Source: Candidatus Poribacteria bacterium
GTDB taxonomy: Bacteria; Poribacteria; WGA-4E; WGA-3G
Length of the DNA: 57,626 nt
Assembly (NCBI GenBank): GCA_028820845.1
Contig: JAPPII010000018.1
Coordinates: forward strand, 1-57,626
Direction: 5' to 3'
This document shows, in pieces, positions 837 to 12,678 of this stretch; the first letter of the stretch is position 1; every line of letters begins with the position of its first letter. A model generated the notes under the pieces. The model made no database searches and was not told where the DNA came from. It saw only the letters and a list, made by a program, of their open reading frames with translations. The translations under genes were made by a program, and so were the position numbers.

Positions 837-2336
837 ATGGCTCACTTTTTTTGTGAAGCAAGCCGGACTTTCAGCGAATATTTGCTTTTACCCAACTTAA
901 CGACGAAGGATTGTATCCCTGAAAATGTTATCCTGAGAACCCCTCTGGTGAAGTTTAAAGTGGGGCAACAACCCTCTCTGGAAGTAAATATTCCCTTTGC
1001 TTCTGCAATCATGCAAGCCGTTTCGGATCACAATCTGGCAATTGCCTTGGCAAGACAGGGTGGGATATCCTTTATTTATGGGTCCCAAAGTATTGAAGAG
1101 CAGGTGGCGATGGTCCGGACGGTTAAAAATCACAAAGCAGGTTTCGTTGTCAGCGACTCAAATTTAAAGTGTGATAGTACTATAGAAGATGTTGTGAAAC
1201 TTACTGAAGAAACAGGGCACTCGACGATTGCTATAACCCACGATGGCTCGTCTTCAGGTGAACTCCTTGGACTTATAACGGATAAGGATTATAGATTGAG
1301 TCGCGTGGATTTAGAGGCTAACGTAAGCGAATTCATGACGCCGTTTCCCGAACTAATTGTGGGTCAAAAGGGAATTACGATTGAAGCTGCCAACGACCTC
1401 ATTTGGAAACACAAGATAAATTGTCTGCCGATTGTTGATGAAAATCGTAAACTGGTACATTTGGTCTTTAGGAAGGATTACGATGACCATAAGAAAAACC
1501 CGCTTGAATCCGTAGATTTCCAGAAAAGACTTGTTGTTGGTGCCGGAATTAATACCAGAGATTATAAAGAGAGAGTACCAGCACTGGTCGCAGCAGGTGT
1601 TGATATTATGTGTGTTGATTCTTCTGAAGGGTATACAGAGTGGCAATCAGACACGATCCAATTTATTAAAAATACGTACAATGGGACTGTGAAAGTGGGT
1701 GGCGGAAATGTCGTTCACGGAGATGCATTTACGTATCTGGTAGAAGCCGGTGCTGATTTTATAAAAGTAGGTATCGGTGGAGGTGCTATTTGTATAACAA
1801 GGGAACAGAAAGGAATCGGTCGTGGGCAAGCAACTGCCCTCATTGAAGTCGCTCGGCAAAGGGATCAGTACCTGAAAGAAACCGGTGTTTACGTGCCAAT
1901 TTGCTCAGATGGTGGTATATTCCAAGATTATCATATTGGTTTGGCACTTGCGATGGGTGCGGATTTCGTGATGATGGGCAGATACTTTGCGAGGTTCGAC
2001 GAAAGCCCAAGTAAGATAAGAAAATTGGGTATGAATACAGTGAAAGAATATTGGGGTGAAGGCACAAAGCGAGCCTCTAATTGGCAACGCTACCATGAGG
2101 GCGGCGGTCCAGAATTACTGTTCGAGGAGGGTGCTGATGCTTATGTCCCTTATGCAGGAAAGATGAACGATAATTTGAAAACGACTCTCGCAAAGATCCG
2201 ATCGCTTATGTGTAATTGCGGGGCGATATCCCTACCGGAATTCCGTCAAAAAGCGAGATTCGTGTTAGTCTCTTCAGCAAGTATTCGCGAAGGCGGTGTT
2301 CACGATATTATTCCCAGAACGACGCAGGATGGGTAA
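837..2336 (+). CDS. guaB: IMP dehydrogenase
   Basis: Oxidises IMP to XMP with NAD+, the first committed step of GMP synthesis, in the cytoplasm. At 499 residues it has the usual length. A (beta/alpha)8 barrel is interrupted by a CBS pair (about residues 105-215, including ITDKDYR and FRKDY). Visible motifs are VVGAGI, the [10 protein letters not shown] substrate loop, KVGGGNV, and the catalytic-cysteine loop [20 protein letters not shown]. This loop is a variant of the common GPGSICTTR form. The flap region carries [19 protein letters not shown]. An AGGAGGG ribosome site precedes the start. The next gene begins one base after the stop, so the two are probably co-transcribed. Confidence 0.95.
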
Positions 2337-2337
2337 C

Positions 2338-3912
2338 ATGAAAACTTTCGACAACAAAATCACACTTAATCTCAACGGTAACGCAAAAATCAACGTCAAA
2401 GCCTTCATCGCGCCGATTGAATATACACAATACAACTTTCATGTAGACTGGGATACATTAGCAAACCTACGCGTCGCTGAACCAGAAAAACAGTATCCCC
2501 ACTCAATCTTCTGCGACTTCCTCCCTAAGGAAGCCGTTTCTGTCGGGACACCTTGGGAGATTGAGCACGCTGGTCCTCTGGAATTGATGAAGCAACTTCA
2601 TCCGAGTCCATCTCTGGGTATGCGCTGGGATCTGCATCACCATAAAACCGAATCTCAAGGACTATGGGCATGCCTCCGCGCCCACGGCGATGAATTCGCT
2701 GACATTGTGTTCCGCATCCACGCGCAATTTGCCCTAAAAGATGGTTGGTTCACGCCTTCCCAGTTTACGGGGCATCTTGTTATTGATAGAATTAAAAGAT
2801 CGGTTGCCTTTTTTCAGATGTCTGTTCCTAACGGGACCGTAAACTTTGACACTTGGTGGAAGAAGGATCCAGACGCGGAGGGGCATATTATGGATATCGG
2901 CTTCTGCCCGCAAATGGAGCTCCATGCTGGAACAGAAGATATCCTGCAAAACGCTAAATTCGCTGAATCCATTAGGCAAGAGGAAGTGGAGCACCAATTA
3001 ACGCGCTGCTTCTACAAATCACAGCAAATTAACTGGGTATCGCTCAAAGAAGCGTTGGAGACGGCACCCGCAGAACAGAAACCGATTCATGCCATCTCAA
3101 TAGATGGACCGCTCCTTGACGAATCCTGCTGAGGGAGTGGCAAAGGCTTGAGGGCAGGTGTCCTCTCAAAAGACGAAGTTATTGAATTTTTAAACGAAAA
3201 TTTTGTCAATACATGGGTACCCAATTGTGAATTAGGACGTATCCAGAGTTTGCGGGAACCGATTGCCAAAAGACGCGAACGCGAGGGGAAGAGCTTTGAC
3301 ACATCGCACCCGTTAGCACAAGCGATTATTAAAGGCTGGGAAACCGGATCCAAAAAAGGCTCGCCGGTAGATTGCTTGGTTATATCGTCAACGTTTGAAC
3401 TAATGGGTAGACAAATGGTCAATAATCTCCGCGAAGACAGTGAGCGTGAGGGACTCCCGAAGCATGTGCATTATCTCGCATTTCTCAAGGAAGCCTTGGG
3501 AGGAAAACAGCCCGGGTTAGGCAATATTGTACTAAGCCGTGAGCAGCCATCGGGAACAGTGTTGGGCACTTTTCGGATACCGATTGTGGGGCATCAGGAC
3601 TGGACTGTTGTCATGATTGATACCACAGCTTTTGGAAACGGCGGCACACTCACCATTGACGTTGAAATCGGTAGAGAAGATGGTGAAGCGGCGTTCTTTC
3701 TGCTTGATGGTGATAAAGAACTTCCCACAGAAGAAACATTACCTAAAGACAAGATTACTTGGGTATGGGGTGAACCCGGGGACACCCGTCAAATTAAGCA
3801 TCGCTTCAACAAAGGTCAATTATTTAAGTTAGGTGTTATTGGAGCTTGGGTGAGAGACGAACCGTGCATAAACGCCTTTCACGCAAAAATTTCTGTAGAG
3901 GCAGCAGATTGA
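2338..3912 (+). CDS. Probable selenoprotein with thioredoxin-like Cys-Sec motif, read through TGA at 3130-3132
   Basis: Two open frames, 2338-3132 and 3133-3912, are in the same frame and separated only by one TGA. Reading TGA as selenocysteine gives 524 residues with Cys264-Sec265-GSGKGLR. The frame then continues into a thioredoxin-fold-like stretch (VLSKDEVIEFLNENFVNTWV) that resembles the segment after the redox pair in thioredoxin-like proteins. The second half has no good start of its own: its first possible codon is a TTG inside the hairpin. A SECIS-like hairpin lies just 3' of the TGA. The N-terminal 240 residues are unrecognised; they contain HHH and several Trp residues. TGA is an ordinary stop in neighbouring genes, including this one's own end. 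It could instead be a nonsense mutation or sequence error. The redox role is inferred from the motif. Start 2338 is chosen over 2329 for ribosome-site spacing. Confidence 0.72.
3133..3172 (+). promoter_or_regulatory. Bacterial SECIS-like stem-loop
   Basis: Immediately after the in-frame TGA, TTGAGGG at 3149-3155 faces CCTCTCAA at 3161-3168. The stem is TTGAG/CTCAA plus GG/CC with a single bulged T. The short apical loop contains AGGTGT. The loop begins about 22 nt after the TGA, inside the range known for bacterial SelB-dependent SECIS elements. The GG at the loop and the bulged U are the features SelB recognises in the E. coli fdhF element. Folding was done by eye. Confidence 0.6.
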
Positions 3913-4684: not shown

Positions 4685-4738
4685 CAACAATAGTCTTTTT
4701 CCCGATAATTTTATATTCTTTCACACATGAGACTATCT

Positions 4739-5881
4739 ATGAAAACCACCCATCAGATCCTTTTTCAAAACGCACAAGATTTAAAAGTACTCCCTTCAGA
4801 AAGCGTTGATTTGGTCGTTACCTCCCCACCGTATCCCATGATTGAGATGTGGGACGATATATTCAGTGCCCAAAATTCGGAGATTCAAAATGCCCTTATA
4901 CGCGGTGACGGTAAGCAGGCTTATGAATTAATGCACCAGATCCTTGATTCTGTATGGAATGAAATGTTTAGAGTCTTAAAGAATGGCAGATTTGCTTGCA
5001 TCAATATAGGCGATGCAACAAGAAAAATCCGAGATGACTTCTGTTTATATCCCAACCATGCCAGAATTCTGAATTATCTCCTAACTATCGGGTTCTCAGC
5101 ACTCCCTGACATCCTCTGGCGCAAACAGGCGAATACCCCCAATAAATTTATGGGCTCCGGTATGCTCCCTGCGGGTGCTTATGTGACACTTGAACACGAG
5201 TATATCTTAATCCTCAGAAAAGGTTCCAAAAGAGAGTTTAAAACAGAATCCGAAAAAGAAAACAGACGCGAAAGTGCCTTGTTCTGGGAAGAACGGAATA
5301 TTTGGTATTCAGATGTTTGGATGGATATTAAGGGAACAGATCAGAAGCTTCCGAATGCAGTGTCACGATTGAGGAGCGCAGCATTTCCATTTGATCTGGC
5401 TTATCGACTCATCAATATGTATTCCGCAAAAGATGATGTGATACTTGATCCATTTTTGGGTACAGGAACTACGACTGCTGCTGCAATGACATCAGGACGC
5501 AATAGCATCGGTGTTGAAATCGACGAGAGTTTTCAACAGATTATTTGTCCGATTGTGCATCACATTATCGAGTTTTCAAACGATTATTTGTCCGACAGGT
5601 TGCAAAGACACTTGGCGTTTGTCGAAAATAGGATCCGAAACGCGGGAATGACAAAATATACAAATAAGTACTACGGCTGCCCGGTGGTGACGAGCCAAGA
5701 GCAGTTTATTTTTCTGAACAGTCTCAAAGAAATCCGAACAAGCAAAGATAATATCTTTGAAGTCACATATTCAAAGAAACCGCAAGCTTGGAATTTTGAA
5801 CGCCCCTCGGAAACTTTGGGCAGGCAGAAAATGAAGTCGTCCACAAAACTCTTTCAACCCAGCATGTTGGACACACAGTAA
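4739..5881 (+). CDS. Type II DNA methyltransferase, probably N4-cytosine, MjaI-type
   Basis: Modifies host DNA to protect it from the restriction enzyme encoded next. Motif IV TSPPYPMI appears near residue 25 and the SAM-binding motif I DPFLGTGTTTAAA near residue 240. This order (catalytic motif before SAM motif) is the beta class, and SPPY favours N4-cytosine. The partner's family (MjaI) cuts CTAG, so CTAG is the likely target; that is inference. Start 4739 is preferred over 4727 because the endonuclease has the same leader, TATCTATGAAAA. Neither has a strong ribosome site. 380 residues. Confidence 0.85.
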   Translation: MKTTHQILFQNAQDLKVLPSESVDLVVTSPPYPMIEMWDDIFSAQNSEIQNALIRGDGKQAYELMHQILDSVWNEMFRVLKNGRFACINIGDATRKIRDDFCLYPNHARILNYLLTIGFSALPDILWRKQANTPNKFMGSGMLPAGAYVTLEHEYILILRKGSKREFKTESEKENRRESALFWEERNIWYSDVWMDIKGTDQKLPNAVSRLRSAAFPFDLAYRLINMYSAKDDVILDPFLGTGTTTAAAMTSGRNSIGVEIDESFQQIICPIVHHIIEFSNDYLSDRLQRHLAFVENRIRNAGMTKYTNKYYGCPVVTSQEQFIFLNSLKEIRTSKDNIFEVTYSKKPQAWNFERPSETLGRQKMKSSTKLFQPSMLDTQ

Positions 5882-5905
5882 CTTCACATTGCCAAATAAG
5901 TATCT

Positions 5906-6505
5906 ATGAAAATCAAACTCAAAAATGCTGAAATTCAGGAGTATGTGAACGCCCCTGCTTCCGAATTTCCGAAGTACACGACCCAATTAATGAATGTTGC
6001 AAACCAGAATTCTCAAGCAACACGACCGAGACACGTGGGACAATTGAGCGAACTGATTCAGGAATTCCTGGGACAAACCTTTGAAGAATGGGTTACGTGG
6101 TATCAAGAGCGACATCCCGATGCAATTGATGAGGCAACAGATAGAATAATTTCAATGATAGAAAACTTTAATGCGGCTGTCCAAAAAATTGACCGAACCT
6201 TGGTTAAATCATGGGTAGAAGATCTCATTCTGGTCAAGACGTTCGCAGGACTTAGATTTCAGGAGGCAATCCTGAAAAGGTTGTCGGAAATAAGAGGTTG
6301 CGACTACCGTTTGGCAGAACCTCATGAAGAATCTCAGGGCATAGATGGATTCGTAGGGGAAGAAGCGTATTCTATCAAGCCCAATACTTATGATTCAATG
6401 TCAACTTTAGCGGAATCGATAGAGGTAAAAATCATTTTTTACGAAAAAAAGAAGGATGGTGTGGTATTTGAAATACCGGAAGACTTAAGTAAAACCGTTA
6501 AGTGA
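5906..6505 (+). CDS. MjaI-family type II restriction endonuclease
   Basis: A 199-residue protein that fits the MjaI restriction endonuclease family. Its N-terminal PKYTTQLMNVANQNSQATRP and the following VGQLSELIQEF are the parts I recognise from that family. The C-terminal half holds QEAILKRL and IDGFVGEEAYSIKPNTY; an acidic residue followed by a lysine two strands on would suit a PD-(D/E)xK-like site. It lies 24 bp after its methyltransferase and shares the TATCTATGAAAA leader, so the two form one unit. Predicted cleavage at CTAG is inferred from the family name enzyme. It looks full length, so the system may be active. Confidence 0.78.
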   Translation: MKIKLKNAEIQEYVNAPASEFPKYTTQLMNVANQNSQATRPRHVGQLSELIQEFLGQTFEEWVTWYQERHPDAIDEATDRIISMIENFNAAVQKIDRTLVKSWVEDLILVKTFAGLRFQEAILKRLSEIRGCDYRLAEPHEESQGIDGFVGEEAYSIKPNTYDSMSTLAESIEVKIIFYEKKKDGVVFEIPEDLSKTVK

Positions 6506-7652: not shown

Positions 7653-8618
7653 ATGCCTATCAGAATTCTCTCCGCTGCCGATGTCCGAGATGCTCTACCG
7701 ATGTCCCAAGCGATTGATGCAATGTGTTATGCCTACGGTCAACTTTCGGCAGGCAAAGCCATCGCACCACCACGGCAACACATCTCCACCGACAAAGGCG
7801 TTACGCTTATAATGTCCGCCTACCTCCCAGAACATAGAGACTTCGGAATCAAAGTTGTCTCAGTCTATGACGATAATCCTAACCTCAAGTTACCTCGTAT
7901 CACCGCGACAGTCTTAGTCCTCGATCCAGCCACAGGAGTCCCAAAAGCCTTCATAGACGGTGCCAGTCTCACTGCCATCCGCACAGGTGCCGGTGGCGGC
8001 GTGGCGGCAGATTTGCTTGCTCGGCAAGATGCAAAAACAGTTGGACTCTTTGGAGCCGGTGTACAGGCAAGAGCACAGTTACAGGCGGTGAGAGCAGTCA
8101 GAGACATCACCTGTGTCAACCTTATCAGTCGCACACAAACCTCCGCACAACAACTCGCTACCGAGATTTCCGAGTGGACAGATGCTCCCGAAGTCAATCT
8201 CGTATCTACGCCACAACAGGTCATAGAAAATGCTGATATTGTCCTATGTGCGACGACCTCAGCAACCCCTCTTTTTGACGGAAGTGCTTTACAACTTGGC
8301 ACACACATCACAGCCGTCGGCACATTCGTCCCAGAAAAACGGGAAGTTGATACCACAACAATAAGGCGAGCAGATCGGATTGTGGTTGATTCGCGGGAAG
8401 CCTGCTTAGAGGAAGCGGGTGATCTGATTATTCCAAATGCCGAAATTGATGCTGAAATCGGTGAAATCGTTAACGGCGACAAATCTGGGCGGCAGTCAGA
8501 TGACGAAATCACGTTCTTCAAATCTGTAGGGGTGGCGGTGCAAGATGCAGTGGCAGGTGCAGCGGTACTCGCAGCGGCAGAAGCAAAAGGGTTAGGTGTT
8601 CTTGCGGACCTCTGGTAG
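7653..8618 (+). CDS. Ornithine cyclodeaminase/mu-crystallin family protein, probable pyrroline-2-carboxylate reductase
   Basis: A 321-residue protein with the family's Rossmann segment (VGLFGAGVQARAQLQAV near residue 130). Upstream it has the substrate-binding FGIKVVSVYDDNP and the ITATVLVLD/PKAFIDG strand. TAIRTGAGGGVAADLLA is the family signature. Members include ornithine cyclodeaminase, ketimine reductase and delta1-pyrroline-2-carboxylate reductase. The neighbouring dehydratase points to the last: NAD(P)H reduction to L-proline. The last 27 bases overlap the 3' end of the convergent crtW gene. Confidence 0.78.
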   Translation: MPIRILSAADVRDALPMSQAIDAMCYAYGQLSAGKAIAPPRQHISTDKGVTLIMSAYLPEHRDFGIKVVSVYDDNPNLKLPRITATVLVLDPATGVPKAFIDGASLTAIRTGAGGGVAADLLARQDAKTVGLFGAGVQARAQLQAVRAVRDITCVNLISRTQTSAQQLATEISEWTDAPEVNLVSTPQQVIENADIVLCATTSATPLFDGSALQLGTHITAVGTFVPEKREVDTTTIRRADRIVVDSREACLEEAGDLIIPNAEIDAEIGEIVNGDKSGRQSDDEITFFKSVGVAVQDAVAGAAVLAAAEAKGLGVLADLW

Positions 8619-9296
8619 ATGCCACCACGGAACGGACGGATATTCATGGTGTTCCCAGTGGTAGCCGAAGTGATAACAGGTGATAAAAGACCAGAATGTC
8701 GAATACGCATTGCTTCGCGCTCGGTGTGGGTTGTCGTAGCCATCTTCTGGTCTGCGATGTGGTAGATACGTGCCAAAATAAAATAGCTGCAGCGTGCTAA
8801 GCAGTGCTGGAGAAACCCAGAACAGTATCAGATTGAGTGTCGGGATTCCCAGAACGTATTCCAGAATCTGAAAGACAATCGCCATACCGACCATCTGTCT
8901 CCAACTGAGGTATTCCTTCATAAAACGAAGATACCACATTAAGAAACCGCTATGCCCCCCATCGTGAAAATCTGGATCCGTTTCACTCGCCGGTGCTCGG
9001 TGGTGTGCCCAATGTTTCGCTAATAATTTGCGATATGAAAACAGGGCATATAACCTGACAGCGATTGTCCCGATTGTATTATTGACCCGTGGGCGCGTTT
9101 GGCAAACCGCACCGTGCATTGCATCGTGTGCTGTAATGAAAAGACCGGTATAGAGAAACGTCTGGCAAAGGACACCCAAAGGGACCAACGCAATGTTAAT
9201 CCGAGCGAGATCGAGTGACAGCAAAACTGAGAGACTCAATCCCCACAGACCCATAATCATTAGCGCAATGAATAAACCCTTGTTTGTCGTTTTCAT
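8592..9296 (-). CDS. crtW: Beta-carotene ketolase, CrtW type
   Basis: A 234-residue membrane di-iron enzyme of the fatty-acid-desaturase/hydroxylase superfamily that puts a 4-keto group on a beta-ionone ring. The histidine clusters are HDAMHG, HWAHH and HHEYPSVPWWHLP; the last matches CrtW better than fatty-acid desaturases. Hydrophobic spans flank them. The start at 9296 is chosen because its ATG overlaps the cruF stop as ATGA. An upstream in-frame extension would merely read the cruF region in another frame. It is the last gene of the carotenoid operon. Confidence 0.85.
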   Translation of the reverse strand: MKTTNKGLFIALMIMGLWGLSLSVLLSLDLARINIALVPLGVLCQTFLYTGLFITAHDAMHGAVCQTRPRVNNTIGTIAVRLYALFSYRKLLAKHWAHHRAPASETDPDFHDGGHSGFLMWYLRFMKEYLSWRQMVGMAIVFQILEYVLGIPTLNLILFWVSPALLSTLQLFYFGTYLPHRRPEDGYDNPHRARSNAYSTFWSFITCYHFGYHWEHHEYPSVPWWHLPEVRKNT

Positions 9297-9955
9297 AGGC
9301 TTTTCAAATCCACCAGTCCGAAATAGATGAGTTGTGCGAAATAGAAATGAAACGCAATTCGAGGCAACGGCGGTTGAAAAAACAAACCAACTTTTATACC
9401 AATCGTCGCAAAGACGAAACTCAATCCGAACCACGCCAGATAGTTCTGCAGCGGAATACGGTTGTCCACCCATACCCAATAGTCTAATATCCCCGCTGCA
9501 GGTTCCATAAACAGATCAAAACAGACCATCAACACCGCTACACACATTGCCAACTTGATTGTACTTTTAATTACGGATTTTGGTGCGATTTTTTGGACGA
9601 CGGCAACTGAAGCAACAAGCATTACAAACCAAGCACACCCGATAGAGATCGGCACACCATCAATTGAGGGACGTAGTGCTTGCCCGTAGGTATACGCTCC
9701 GAAAATCTTCCCTGTCCGAACACCGAGCCATTCAACTCCGACACTCCCTACAATAACGATGATGCTCCAGAGAACAAGTTGCCGTCTTTTCCGTGGTGGA
9801 TATACCTGCCAACACTCCCAAAAGAGCCAGATCCCCAAACCAAACATCATCGGCGAAGCAAGAACTCGCATGGCTCCTTGAAAAACACCGAGCAGATGCC
9901 ACAACCCGCCCGCACCTAAAAGCAGATAAAGTACACCTATTTTTTGCTTGTTCAC
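9293..9955 (-). CDS. cruF: Carotenoid 1,2-hydratase, CruF/DUF422 type
   Basis: A 220-residue polytopic membrane protein. The block GVEWLGVRTGKIFGAYTYG followed by GVPISIGCAWFVM is characteristic of the DUF422 carotenoid family (CruF). These enzymes add water across the 1,2 double bond of an acyclic psi end group, giving a tertiary hydroxyl. Here that hydroxyl would be the acceptor for the glycosyltransferase next door. The start is GTG, immediately after the TAA of the upstream glycosyltransferase gene. The end overlaps crtW by four bases. The exact substrate is inferred. Confidence 0.82.
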   Translation of the reverse strand: MNKQKIGVLYLLLGAGGLWHLLGVFQGAMRVLASPMMFGLGIWLFWECWQVYPPRKRRQLVLWSIIVIVGSVGVEWLGVRTGKIFGAYTYGQALRPSIDGVPISIGCAWFVMLVASVAVVQKIAPKSVIKSTIKLAMCVAVLMVCFDLFMEPAAGILDYWVWVDNRIPLQNYLAWFGLSFVFATIGIKVGLFFQPPLPRIAFHFYFAQLIYFGLVDLKSL

Positions 9956-11077
9956 TTACCTATTTACCTGCATGTCAATCCGCCGTCCTTTCCATTGCAA
10001 GCGACCGCGTTTAACTTGATAGAATGAATTAATCCCTATTAGCAACGTGAATAAAACACCCATCGGATGCAAAACTACGCTTGTAAAGAATGGGTGCCTA
10101 TATTTCAACGCCAGTACAGCACGCATCGTAATATTCATAGAGATAGCAATGAGCGATAGTTTCGTAAGCGAAGCGAACCAAACAGTGATATAGGGCAAAA
10201 CACACATTGTAAACAGCGCAAGCGTTAGCACAAAAAACGGGATTGTCTTGTAGCGCACCAATCCAAAAAGGTTTTTGGAAAACCCGTTCCACACTTCGCC
10301 AAACGAATGATACATTCGACAAAACACCACGCGAGTGCCAGCCGAAGTCAAGATTTTGATGCCCTTCTTTTTTGCCAAGCGACTTAACTCAACGTCCTCA
10401 ACAATTTGACTGGATACCGCTTGATGCCCACCAATCTGTTGATATGCATCGCGAGTAAAGGCAATCCAGAGACCACTCGCAGCTGCCAGCGACGGAAAAC
10501 GACTGAAATACGTAAGCCACAACGGAAGCCCAGCATAAACAAACATATCAACCACCGGCACTACGAGATTTTCCGCCAAACCTCCAGTTACTTTCTCTGG
10601 AAACGCCGATAATAATCCAAGTCCAAACTTCTGCATATAGGCGACGGTATTCACAATCGCGTTCGGGGCAGGACGGTTATCCGCATCGGTGAAGATGAGT
10701 ATCTCTCCATCGGCATGCTGACTTAATTGATGGCACGCCCAATTTTTGCCCATCCAGCCCGATGGCAGGGATGCACCGCGCATTGCTCGAACTTTAGAAT
10801 GCCGCGTCGCGAACGCTTCAATGATTTCACCCGTGCGATCGGTCGATTGGTCATCAAGAACGTGAATCTCAAAATTGTCGTACTGCTGTGCCAAAAACCC
10901 TTCAATACACGCACCGATATTGGCTTCCTCGTTCCGAGCGGGAATCAGCACCGAGACGCGCGGACGGTTCTGGAGGCTGACGGATTTTTTCAGCATCGGT
11001 GCAGTCACAGCATTAAACAAAGCGACTGCCAAAATAACCGCCAACAAAACTATCGAAATAACTATGAGAGTAAACAA
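9956..11077 (-). CDS. Family 2 glycosyltransferase, CruG/CrtQ-like
   Basis: A 373-residue membrane glycosyltransferase probably attaching a sugar to the carotenoid 1-hydroxyl. An N-terminal helix is followed by a GT-A domain. It shows VSVLIPARNEEANI, LDDQSTDRT (nucleotide binding), the metal-binding TDADN and an acceptor/base region VEDVELSR. Three or four C-terminal hydrophobic helices follow. GWMGKNWACHQL is typical of the carotenoid GT2 group. The start codon in the frame is TTG at 11077, with AAAGG about ten bases upstream. The gene sits between the acyltransferase and cruF, all closely spaced. Confidence 0.8.
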   Translation of the reverse strand: MFTLIVISIVLLAVILAVALFNAVTAPMLKKSVSLQNRPRVSVLIPARNEEANIGACIEGFLAQQYDNFEIHVLDDQSTDRTGEIIEAFATRHSKVRAMRGASLPSGWMGKNWACHQLSQHADGEILIFTDADNRPAPNAIVNTVAYMQKFGLGLLSAFPEKVTGGLAENLVVPVVDMFVYAGLPLWLTYFSRFPSLAAASGLWIAFTRDAYQQIGGHQAVSSQIVEDVELSRLAKKKGIKILTSAGTRVVFCRMYHSFGEVWNGFSKNLFGLVRYKTIPFFVLTLALFTMCVLPYITVWFASLTKLSLIAISMNITMRAVLALKYRHPFFTSVVLHPMGVLFTLLIGINSFYQVKRGRLQWKGRRIDMQVNR

Positions 11078-11092
11078 AGCAACGCCGACCTT

Positions 11093-11752
11093 TCAAGGTA
11101 GCAGATTCCGTCCCTTTTCCTGACGAAGCATCCGCAGCGCGAGATCATCTAACAAGGCAGTTTCAGTCTCCTCAAGCCAATCCACTCCGAGAAATGTGTC
11201 CGAGTCAAAGACATTGACATCCCCAAATAAAAATAACACTTCTGGACGTTTCTCACCGAGGAGTTCAGTGCGAATTGCCAAGGGTAGAATAGCCACCGGT
11301 TTTCCGTATGCCCTTAAAATCCATTCAACACCGCGTTTATAGCCGAGTGGACGCGTGTGCCATGGTAATAATTCGCCCTGCGGAAAAATAGAGATAAGCG
11401 GGGTCCCTCGTTTCAATAATTCAACGGTATATTCCAGCGATTCAACGATACCTTGCCGATGCTTCGGCGCAATCGAATAAGCCCCAATCTTCGTAAAAAA
11501 CTTGTACTTAGATAATTGCTCCTCAAGCATCATCAAATAGGCAGTTCGTCGAAAAATTCGTTTATTGAGCAGATAAACAAAGAACCCATCCCACCATGTA
11601 CTGTGATTCGGCAGCAATAGCAACGGCAAATGCTTCGGAATTTCTGGCAGATCCCCCAAGAGTTGGATTGCGTGAAAATGCCGTTTGAATAACCATTTTA
11701 GATACGGTTGAAAGATAAAATCCGCCCAAAAGCGGTGTTGTGCCCGAATCAT
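11093..11752 (-). CDS. Lysophospholipid-type acyltransferase, probable carotenoid-glycoside acyltransferase
   Basis: A 219-residue PlsC-like protein. The HX4D catalytic box is NHSTWWD (near residue 50), the acceptor-binding motif is FPQGE, and LPLAIRTE suits motif IV. A general role in phospholipid synthesis is possible. Its position inside the carotenoid operon, with start overlapping the crtB stop (ATGA) and 15 bp before the glycosyltransferase, suggests that it esterifies the carotenoid-bound sugar. That role is inference from context. Confidence 0.75.
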   Translation of the reverse strand: MIRAQHRFWADFIFQPYLKWLFKRHFHAIQLLGDLPEIPKHLPLLLLPNHSTWWDGFFVYLLNKRIFRRTAYLMMLEEQLSKYKFFTKIGAYSIAPKHRQGIVESLEYTVELLKRGTPLISIFPQGELLPWHTRPLGYKRGVEWILRAYGKPVAILPLAIRTELLGEKRPEVLFLFGDVNVFDSDTFLGVDWLEETETALLDDLALRMLRQEKGRNLLP

Positions 11753-12678
11753 TTATTTATTATTCCAGAGTGAGCTGGGAATAGTTTTTCCTGCGCCGAT
11801 AGGAGCTTTGTGCGAAGTCCTTCGTGTAGCAAAATTCCAATTTTTTCAACTGATGGCACAAAAACTCGACCTAAAAACGGGTTGTAATCGTGGGCTTCGA
11901 TTTTTCTTAAGATACCGCGGTAAATTTTAGCAGCCGAATAAATCGCATACTGCGAATCCGTATTGAGCAGGGAAATCCCCGGCATTGCCTCAGCATAATA
12001 GTGATCCGCGCGTTCGACTTGAAATTTTATGAGTGTTTTTAATCGAGGTGTCATTCTCTCTTCTAAGATGTCCTGTTCTGACACACCGAATTGCACCAAC
12101 TCCCTCTGCGGTAGATAGATGCGTCCCATCCCTTTATCCTCTTTAACATCCCTCAGAATATTGGTCAGCTGCATGGCAATACCGAGTTGCTTGGCGTAGT
12201 CAAACGCCCGATCGTCCTTATAACCAAGAATATGCGTCATCATCAAGCCAACAACAGCCGCAGCCCGATAGCAGAAAAGAGACAGGTCATCAAACGTTTT
12301 GTACCGCATCCGCTGGATATCCATAGCAACACCTTTGAGCAGATCAAGCGGATAGGCAATAGGAATTCCATAAGATTTCGCCACAAGAATAAAGGCACGA
12401 ATAACGGGGTGTTCGGACTCACCTGTATCATAGGCAATCCGTAATTCTTCTGCCACAAATTGAATCTCCCTGAGAAGATCTGTCTTAGTTCGTCGACGCG
12501 GGGTATCAATCAAATTATCGCAGTGTCGGCAGAATCCGTACAAGGCGTATGTTGCCCAACGTTGCTCACTCGGCAGCATTCGTGCAGAAAAATAAAAACT
12601 TTTTGAGTAATAGGCAGTTATCCTGCGAGCATGCTCAAATGCAGCGCGATCTCTGTCTGCTGGTTTCCACAATTTCAT
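11749..12678 (-). CDS. crtB: Phytoene synthase
   Basis: A 309-residue all-helical prenyl synthase joining two geranylgeranyl diphosphates to phytoene, the entry to carotenoid synthesis. The aspartate-rich motifs are CRHCDNLID (near residue 50) and QLTNILRDVKED (near residue 170). SKSFYFSARMLP is typical of the phytoene/dehydrosqualene synthase N-terminus. A GGAGG ribosome site lies five bases upstream. A C30 dehydrosqualene synthase is less likely given the cyclase and C40-type tailoring genes. No geranylgeranyl diphosphate synthase is present in the window. Confidence 0.9.
   Translation of the reverse strand: MKLWKPADRDRAAFEHARRITAYYSKSFYFSARMLPSEQRWATYALYGFCRHCDNLIDTPRRRTKTDLLREIQFVAEELRIAYDTGESEHPVIRAFILVAKSYGIPIAYPLDLLKGVAMDIQRMRYKTFDDLSLFCYRAAAVVGLMMTHILGYKDDRAFDYAKQLGIAMQLTNILRDVKEDKGMGRIYLPQRELVQFGVSEQDILEERMTPRLKTLIKFQVERADHYYAEAMPGISLLNTDSQYAIYSAAKIYRGILRKIEAHDYNPFLGRVFVPSVEKIGILLHEGLRTKLLSAQEKLFPAHSGIINK

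Follow-up and report, generated by a model that had tools for sequence, protein, structure and literature searches.

A probable selenoprotein with a Cys-Sec site represents an apparently undescribed family in Poribacteria

Does a TGA codon in the middle of an otherwise open reading frame of Candidatus Poribacteria bacterium encode selenocysteine (Sec), and if so, in what kind of protein? The frame lies in a window of 57,626 nucleotides, the whole stretch analyzed here (GCA_028820845.1, contig JAPPII010000018.1, positions 1–57,626 of the forward strand), whose numbering we use throughout. The gene occupies positions 2338–3912 on the plus strand and comprises 524 codons and a stop, running from ATG at 2338 to TGA at 3910–3912. 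Its sole internal stop is the TGA at 3130–3132 (codon 265), around which the translated joint reads ...DESC-U-GSGKGLRAG.... A preliminary description made from the letters alone had proposed a single frame broken only by this codon, and both the frame reading and the conservation of TGA in relatives agree. It had also regarded TGA as an ordinary stop elsewhere, and TGA indeed terminates 11 of the 37 frames of at least 250 codons within the window. The gene very probably encodes a selenoprotein of an apparently undescribed family restricted to Poribacteria. This assignment, which the preliminary description had anticipated, is strongly supported because a conserved UGA, a selenocysteine insertion sequence (SECIS), the full Sec machinery, and base-pair covariation all point to it.

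We first consider the UGA itself. We searched the genome that contains the window (G000) and 98 relatives. Most close genomes encode full-length relatives, and almost all of these have a single internal TGA, as do the window gene and its counterpart in a second genome of the same species. When 85 genomes of the phylum Poribacteria were searched with a profile, 65 had relatives, spread over seven genera, and the named matches are all Candidatus Poribacteria metagenome assemblies. Cys-Sec is encoded by 196 of the 198 distinct members that span the site, Cys-Ser by one, and Cys-Gly by one. A strict nucleotide pattern for D-(E/Q)-x-C-U-(G/A)-x-G-(K/R) occurs at 373 sites in 65 genomes, with no more than 15 per genome, and the reversed pattern, our control, at none. 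Conservation of UGA at one site in homologues is what is expected of a bacterial selenoprotein. Pattern sites are also present in one-contig genomes (G005, with 12 sites, G010, G022, G029, and G044); since several of the many-site genomes are single contigs, misassembly is not the cause of the UGA. A plasmid search gave no match.

Homologues with either Cys or Sec at position 265 had been expected. The Sec forms were found in abundance, and Cys-Cys was seen in 0 of the 198 sampled members. Because no Cys homologue was found, the usual supporting test of pairing Cys and Sec forms does not apply to this family, and remote Cys-containing thioredoxins were reached by profile alignment only. Members with a CU site are of three kinds: three-domain proteins such as that of the window, shorter tandem proteins (G058 and G061), and divergent proteins (DDESCUANGK and similar), to which a copy on contig 101 of the same genome (C101) belongs. 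Some members contain two copies of the C-terminal domain. The Ser form is a full-length member (L062:7887–9467) with UCA at the Sec site. The Gly form (L053) is a paralogue on contig 10 of G000 (C10; 75871–77457, minus strand) with GGA replacing the Sec codon, an in-frame insertion, and a signal peptide. We considered whether this copy is a pseudogene and rejected the idea, as its frame is open and the signal peptide is present. Both forms retain the SECIS hairpin, which is intact in the Ser form; this suggests that their loss of Sec was recent.

The SECIS hairpin lies at 3150–3165 on the plus strand, 23 nucleotides past the UGA. Positions 3150–3155 (GAGGGC) pair with 3160–3165 (GTCCTC) to form six base pairs closed by the tetraloop AGGT (3156–3159). 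The hairpin of the preliminary description thus exists, and its larger AGGTGT loop is the same structure drawn without the inner C-G and G-U pairs; the T that it described as bulged (U at 3149) is simply unpaired. Numbered from the T of UGA, the consensus fold across the family pairs 20–25 with 30–35 around AGGU. The third codon positions +20, +23, +26, +29, and +35 are nearly fixed and neighboring positions variable, and no other run of six codons in the gene is as strongly conserved at synonymous sites as codons 271–276, which encode the SECIS. Pair 20–35 forms in 185 of 187 sequences (181 expected) and pair 23–32 in 160 of 187 (142 expected), values reached in 4 and 0 of 20,000 shuffles, respectively, which ignore kinship among the sequences. 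Changes at +20 to C and to T are each matched at +35, by G and by A. At pair 23–32, where both bases are third codon positions, A stands opposite C in 0 of 27, and the tree implies that double changes from GC to AT arose several times independently. In a divergent subfamily the 3′ arm lies two bases away from its usual place, yet a 7-bp hairpin with the loop GGUC keeps GGU at the same distance. The window hairpin (AGGU loop, 6 bp, G in second position, 23 nucleotides, −7.7 to −8.9 kcal/mol) also falls within the bacterial SECIS model given in PMC13188914 (loop of 3–9 nucleotides, stem of 4–16 bp, G in the first two loop positions, 16–37 nucleotides from UGA, minimum free energy ≤ −7.5). Single-sequence folding of 3125–3180 is unremarkable (z 0.35) and uninformative here; the SECIS is supported by comparison across relatives, which indicates that it is under selection. 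A longer hairpin proposed by the single-sequence fold was rejected, as some of its inner pairs fail family-wide (e.g., 16–25, in 47% of sequences).

The genome also has the means to decode such a codon. All four genes named for checking are present: a tRNA-Sec gene (selC; 78.1 bits, anticodon tca) beside selB on contig 124, selA, and selD. None of the outcomes named beforehand as contradicting a selenoprotein occurred. The selD gene (L075; contig 123, 5786–6709) is itself a selenoprotein gene, with UGA in the usual motif KCAGUASK. SelB scores above the curated cutoff in 76 of the 85 phylum genomes; the family-bearing genomes lacking it (G004, G028, G034, G051, and G056) are 73–83% complete. 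In a sponge microbiome, most symbiont bins reportedly contain SelA and SelB together, and most of their reference relatives lack them (PMC5649159).

Structure models place the Cys-Sec site in a thioredoxin fold. The AlphaFold2 model, computed from the window protein and 122 relatives (predicted local distance difference test, pLDDT, 90.1), has three domains: an N-terminal β domain (residues 1–213; 2338–2976), a thioredoxin-fold domain resembling DsbH and AGR proteins (residues 214–395; 2977–3522), and a C-terminal β-sandwich domain (residues 396–524; 3523–3909), all on the plus strand. Residues ~217–398 of this predicted model match DsbH, AGR3, AGR2, TXNDC12, and the Thioredox_DsbH domain in VIA-align at Z 10.4–11.9, the best match being DsbH (2ju5; Z 11.9, root-mean-square deviation 3.6, 125 residues aligned), in keeping with the thioredoxin-like context first proposed. 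Residues 400–524 match various β-sandwiches, and a related domain is fused to extracytoplasmic function (ECF) sigma factors elsewhere in the genome. For the N-terminal domain, which the first reading had not recognized, we found no match in Pfam, NCBIfam, or PDB sequences and no convincing PDB fold: alone, it gave a best Foldseek E of 0.13 and a best VIA-align Z of 5.2, to barrels, which we do not trust; the domain may still have a known fold. Foldseek and a viral fold library, searched with the whole model, returned low-scoring matches only, mostly β-sandwiches, and PDB profile searches gave nothing meaningful.

In a profile alignment with the CXXC proteins L205, L206, and L210, from two genomes outside the phylum, WCxxC falls on C-U-G-S-G. 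Sec265 (3130–3132) takes the place of the first, nucleophilic Cys, Gly268 (3139–3141) that of the second, resolving Cys, and Cys264 (3127–3129) that of the preceding Trp. Cys264 is invariant (123 of 123 in alignment A2), as is the Gly268 column. The thioredoxin-type spacing of two Cys/Sec residues is absent, the site being U-G-S-G. Because of this alignment, and because the active-site helix starts at Sec265 in the model, Cys264 and Sec265 appear to form a vicinal redox pair.

The proposal of a new family is borne out by comparison with known ones. The window protein matches no model of Pfam or of NCBIfam (June 2026); NCBIfam 20.0 assigned it to 0 families and gave one chance match among 23 members (prfB, E 0.22). 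PF03190 (Thioredox_DsbH/DUF255), which together with DsbH, AGR2/AGR3, and TXNDC12 shares the fold of residues ~226–395, gives a faint sequence signal, with an E of 0.026 at best, in 18 of 50 members. The C101 paralogue scores 12.5 bits against a gathering cutoff of 27, C-U-G-S-G replaces CXXC, and two extra β domains are present. As neither the cutoff nor the CXXC motif is reached, we file the protein as a selenoprotein with a thioredoxin-like domain and not as a Thioredox_DsbH member. Two further bacterial selenoproteins, the UGSC-containing selenoprotein (NF041046), with which it shares the letters U-G-S, and the Trx7/PDZ selenoprotein (NF041199), named for its Trx7 domain, have the motifs UGSC and CxxU, respectively; the motif here is CUGSG, and the protein matches neither model. 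Mammalian thioredoxin reductase has an adjacent Cys-Sec pair in the flexible C-terminal tail of a flavoenzyme, whereas the pair proposed here lies at the active-site helix of a thioredoxin fold. We found no fitting entry among those read in a 2026 catalogue of 119 selenoprotein families (PMC13188914), and literature searches on Poribacteria selenoproteins returned nothing on this family.

These features lead us to favor, with some confidence, an oxidoreductase mechanism based on the modeled vicinal pair; our best guess is a cytosolic selenol/disulfide oxidoreductase, the location following from the absence of a signal peptide in the window protein. UGA 265 would be decoded as Sec by SelB and tRNA-Sec, directed by the hairpin at 3150–3165. 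In the central thioredoxin-fold domain, Sec265, which starts the active-site helix, would attack an oxidized substrate (a disulfide, peroxide, or similar). As Gly268 occupies the usual place of the resolving Cys, Cys264 would resolve the intermediate to give a vicinal Cys-Sec selenylsulfide, which thioredoxin or a small thiol could then reduce. Substrate or partner choice would probably fall to the N- and C-terminal β domains, a role that fits the many paralogues.

An unlikely alternative that deserves weighing is that the vicinal Cys-Sec serves in the binding or transfer of metals or metalloids such as mercury or arsenic. PMC13188914 includes proteins with adjacent Cys-Sec as in the window protein (SaoL, HgcA, SaoC, and MbdU), several of them metal-linked (SaoL, which is MerB-like, HgcA, and MbdU); they are listed under the models NF040728, NF040863, NF040734, and NF045648, none of which matches it. 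Disulfide or peroxide chemistry is instead suggested by the CU site, which occupies the redox position of a thioredoxin fold, and the larger neighbor clusters contain no conspicuous metal-resistance genes. It is far less probable that UGA acts mainly as a stop, with a 264-residue N-terminal protein ending in Cys as the working product and readthrough minor. Bacterial Sec insertion does compete with termination, with 30–40% recoding reported in vivo (PMC4513850), and the N-terminal domain models well alone (pLDDT 89.5). Selection on the SECIS argues against this, as does the conservation of residues 214–395 and 396–524, which is about that of the N-terminal domain (mean top-residue frequency 0.72 and 0.64 vs 0.70). 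Sequencing error or a pseudogene, for which the fragmented assembly of the genome is the sole argument, is refuted because the same UGA recurs in many assemblies, single-contig ones included, and in hundreds of genes.

Several points nevertheless weigh against a Sec-dependent oxidoreductase, our preferred reading. Sec insertion in the cell is deduced from sequence, and pair 23–32 is mismatched in ~15% of sequences. The two paralogues with Ser or Gly, their frames otherwise open, may mean that some family function does not need Sec. Neighbors of family genes are generic and suggest neither a substrate nor a functional partner.

Export is predicted for some relatives. Of 196 sequences that start near the N-terminus (partial matches included), 21 have a strongly hydrophobic stretch there. 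Most of the 21 resemble signal peptides, and those spanning the site keep CU, except the C10 copy (CG). The loci of this exported branch include ECF sigma factors that have a membrane segment and a related C-terminal domain, and a sensing circuit of sigma factors and exported family members is possible. Sigma-factor frames fused to the family C-terminal domain were seen in the same loci (L121, L122, L125, L126, L127, L129, L130, L132, L141, L143, and L144), where many family genes encode signal peptides. The C10 paralogue likewise adjoins an ECF sigma factor with a related C-terminal domain.

Upstream, a putative IMP-dehydrogenase-like gene at 837–2336 (plus strand) ends one base before the ATG of the selenoprotein gene; the two probably share a transcript, and a homologue of the upstream gene is present in 17 loci. 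Elsewhere in the window, a frame similar to DNA methyltransferases precedes one that resembles a restriction endonuclease (4727–6505), and the two are perhaps a restriction-modification pair; phytoene-synthase-like, glycosyltransferase, acyltransferase, and hydroxylase-like frames on the minus strand (8592–12678) form a putative carotenoid-synthesis cluster.

The family appears to be a main client of the Sec machinery of Poribacteria. With no Cys homologue in our sample, it would escape search methods that rely on Cys/Sec pairs. More tentatively, it may be a Sec-only enzyme family with a new active-site layout (vicinal Cys-Sec in a thioredoxin fold, no resolving Cys), one that accounts for much of the selenoproteome in sponge-associated Poribacteria and includes an exported branch linked, as a sensing circuit, to ECF sigma factors with its C-terminal domain. 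The two sampled losses of Sec, to Ser and to Gly, make the role of Sec in this family a directly testable question.
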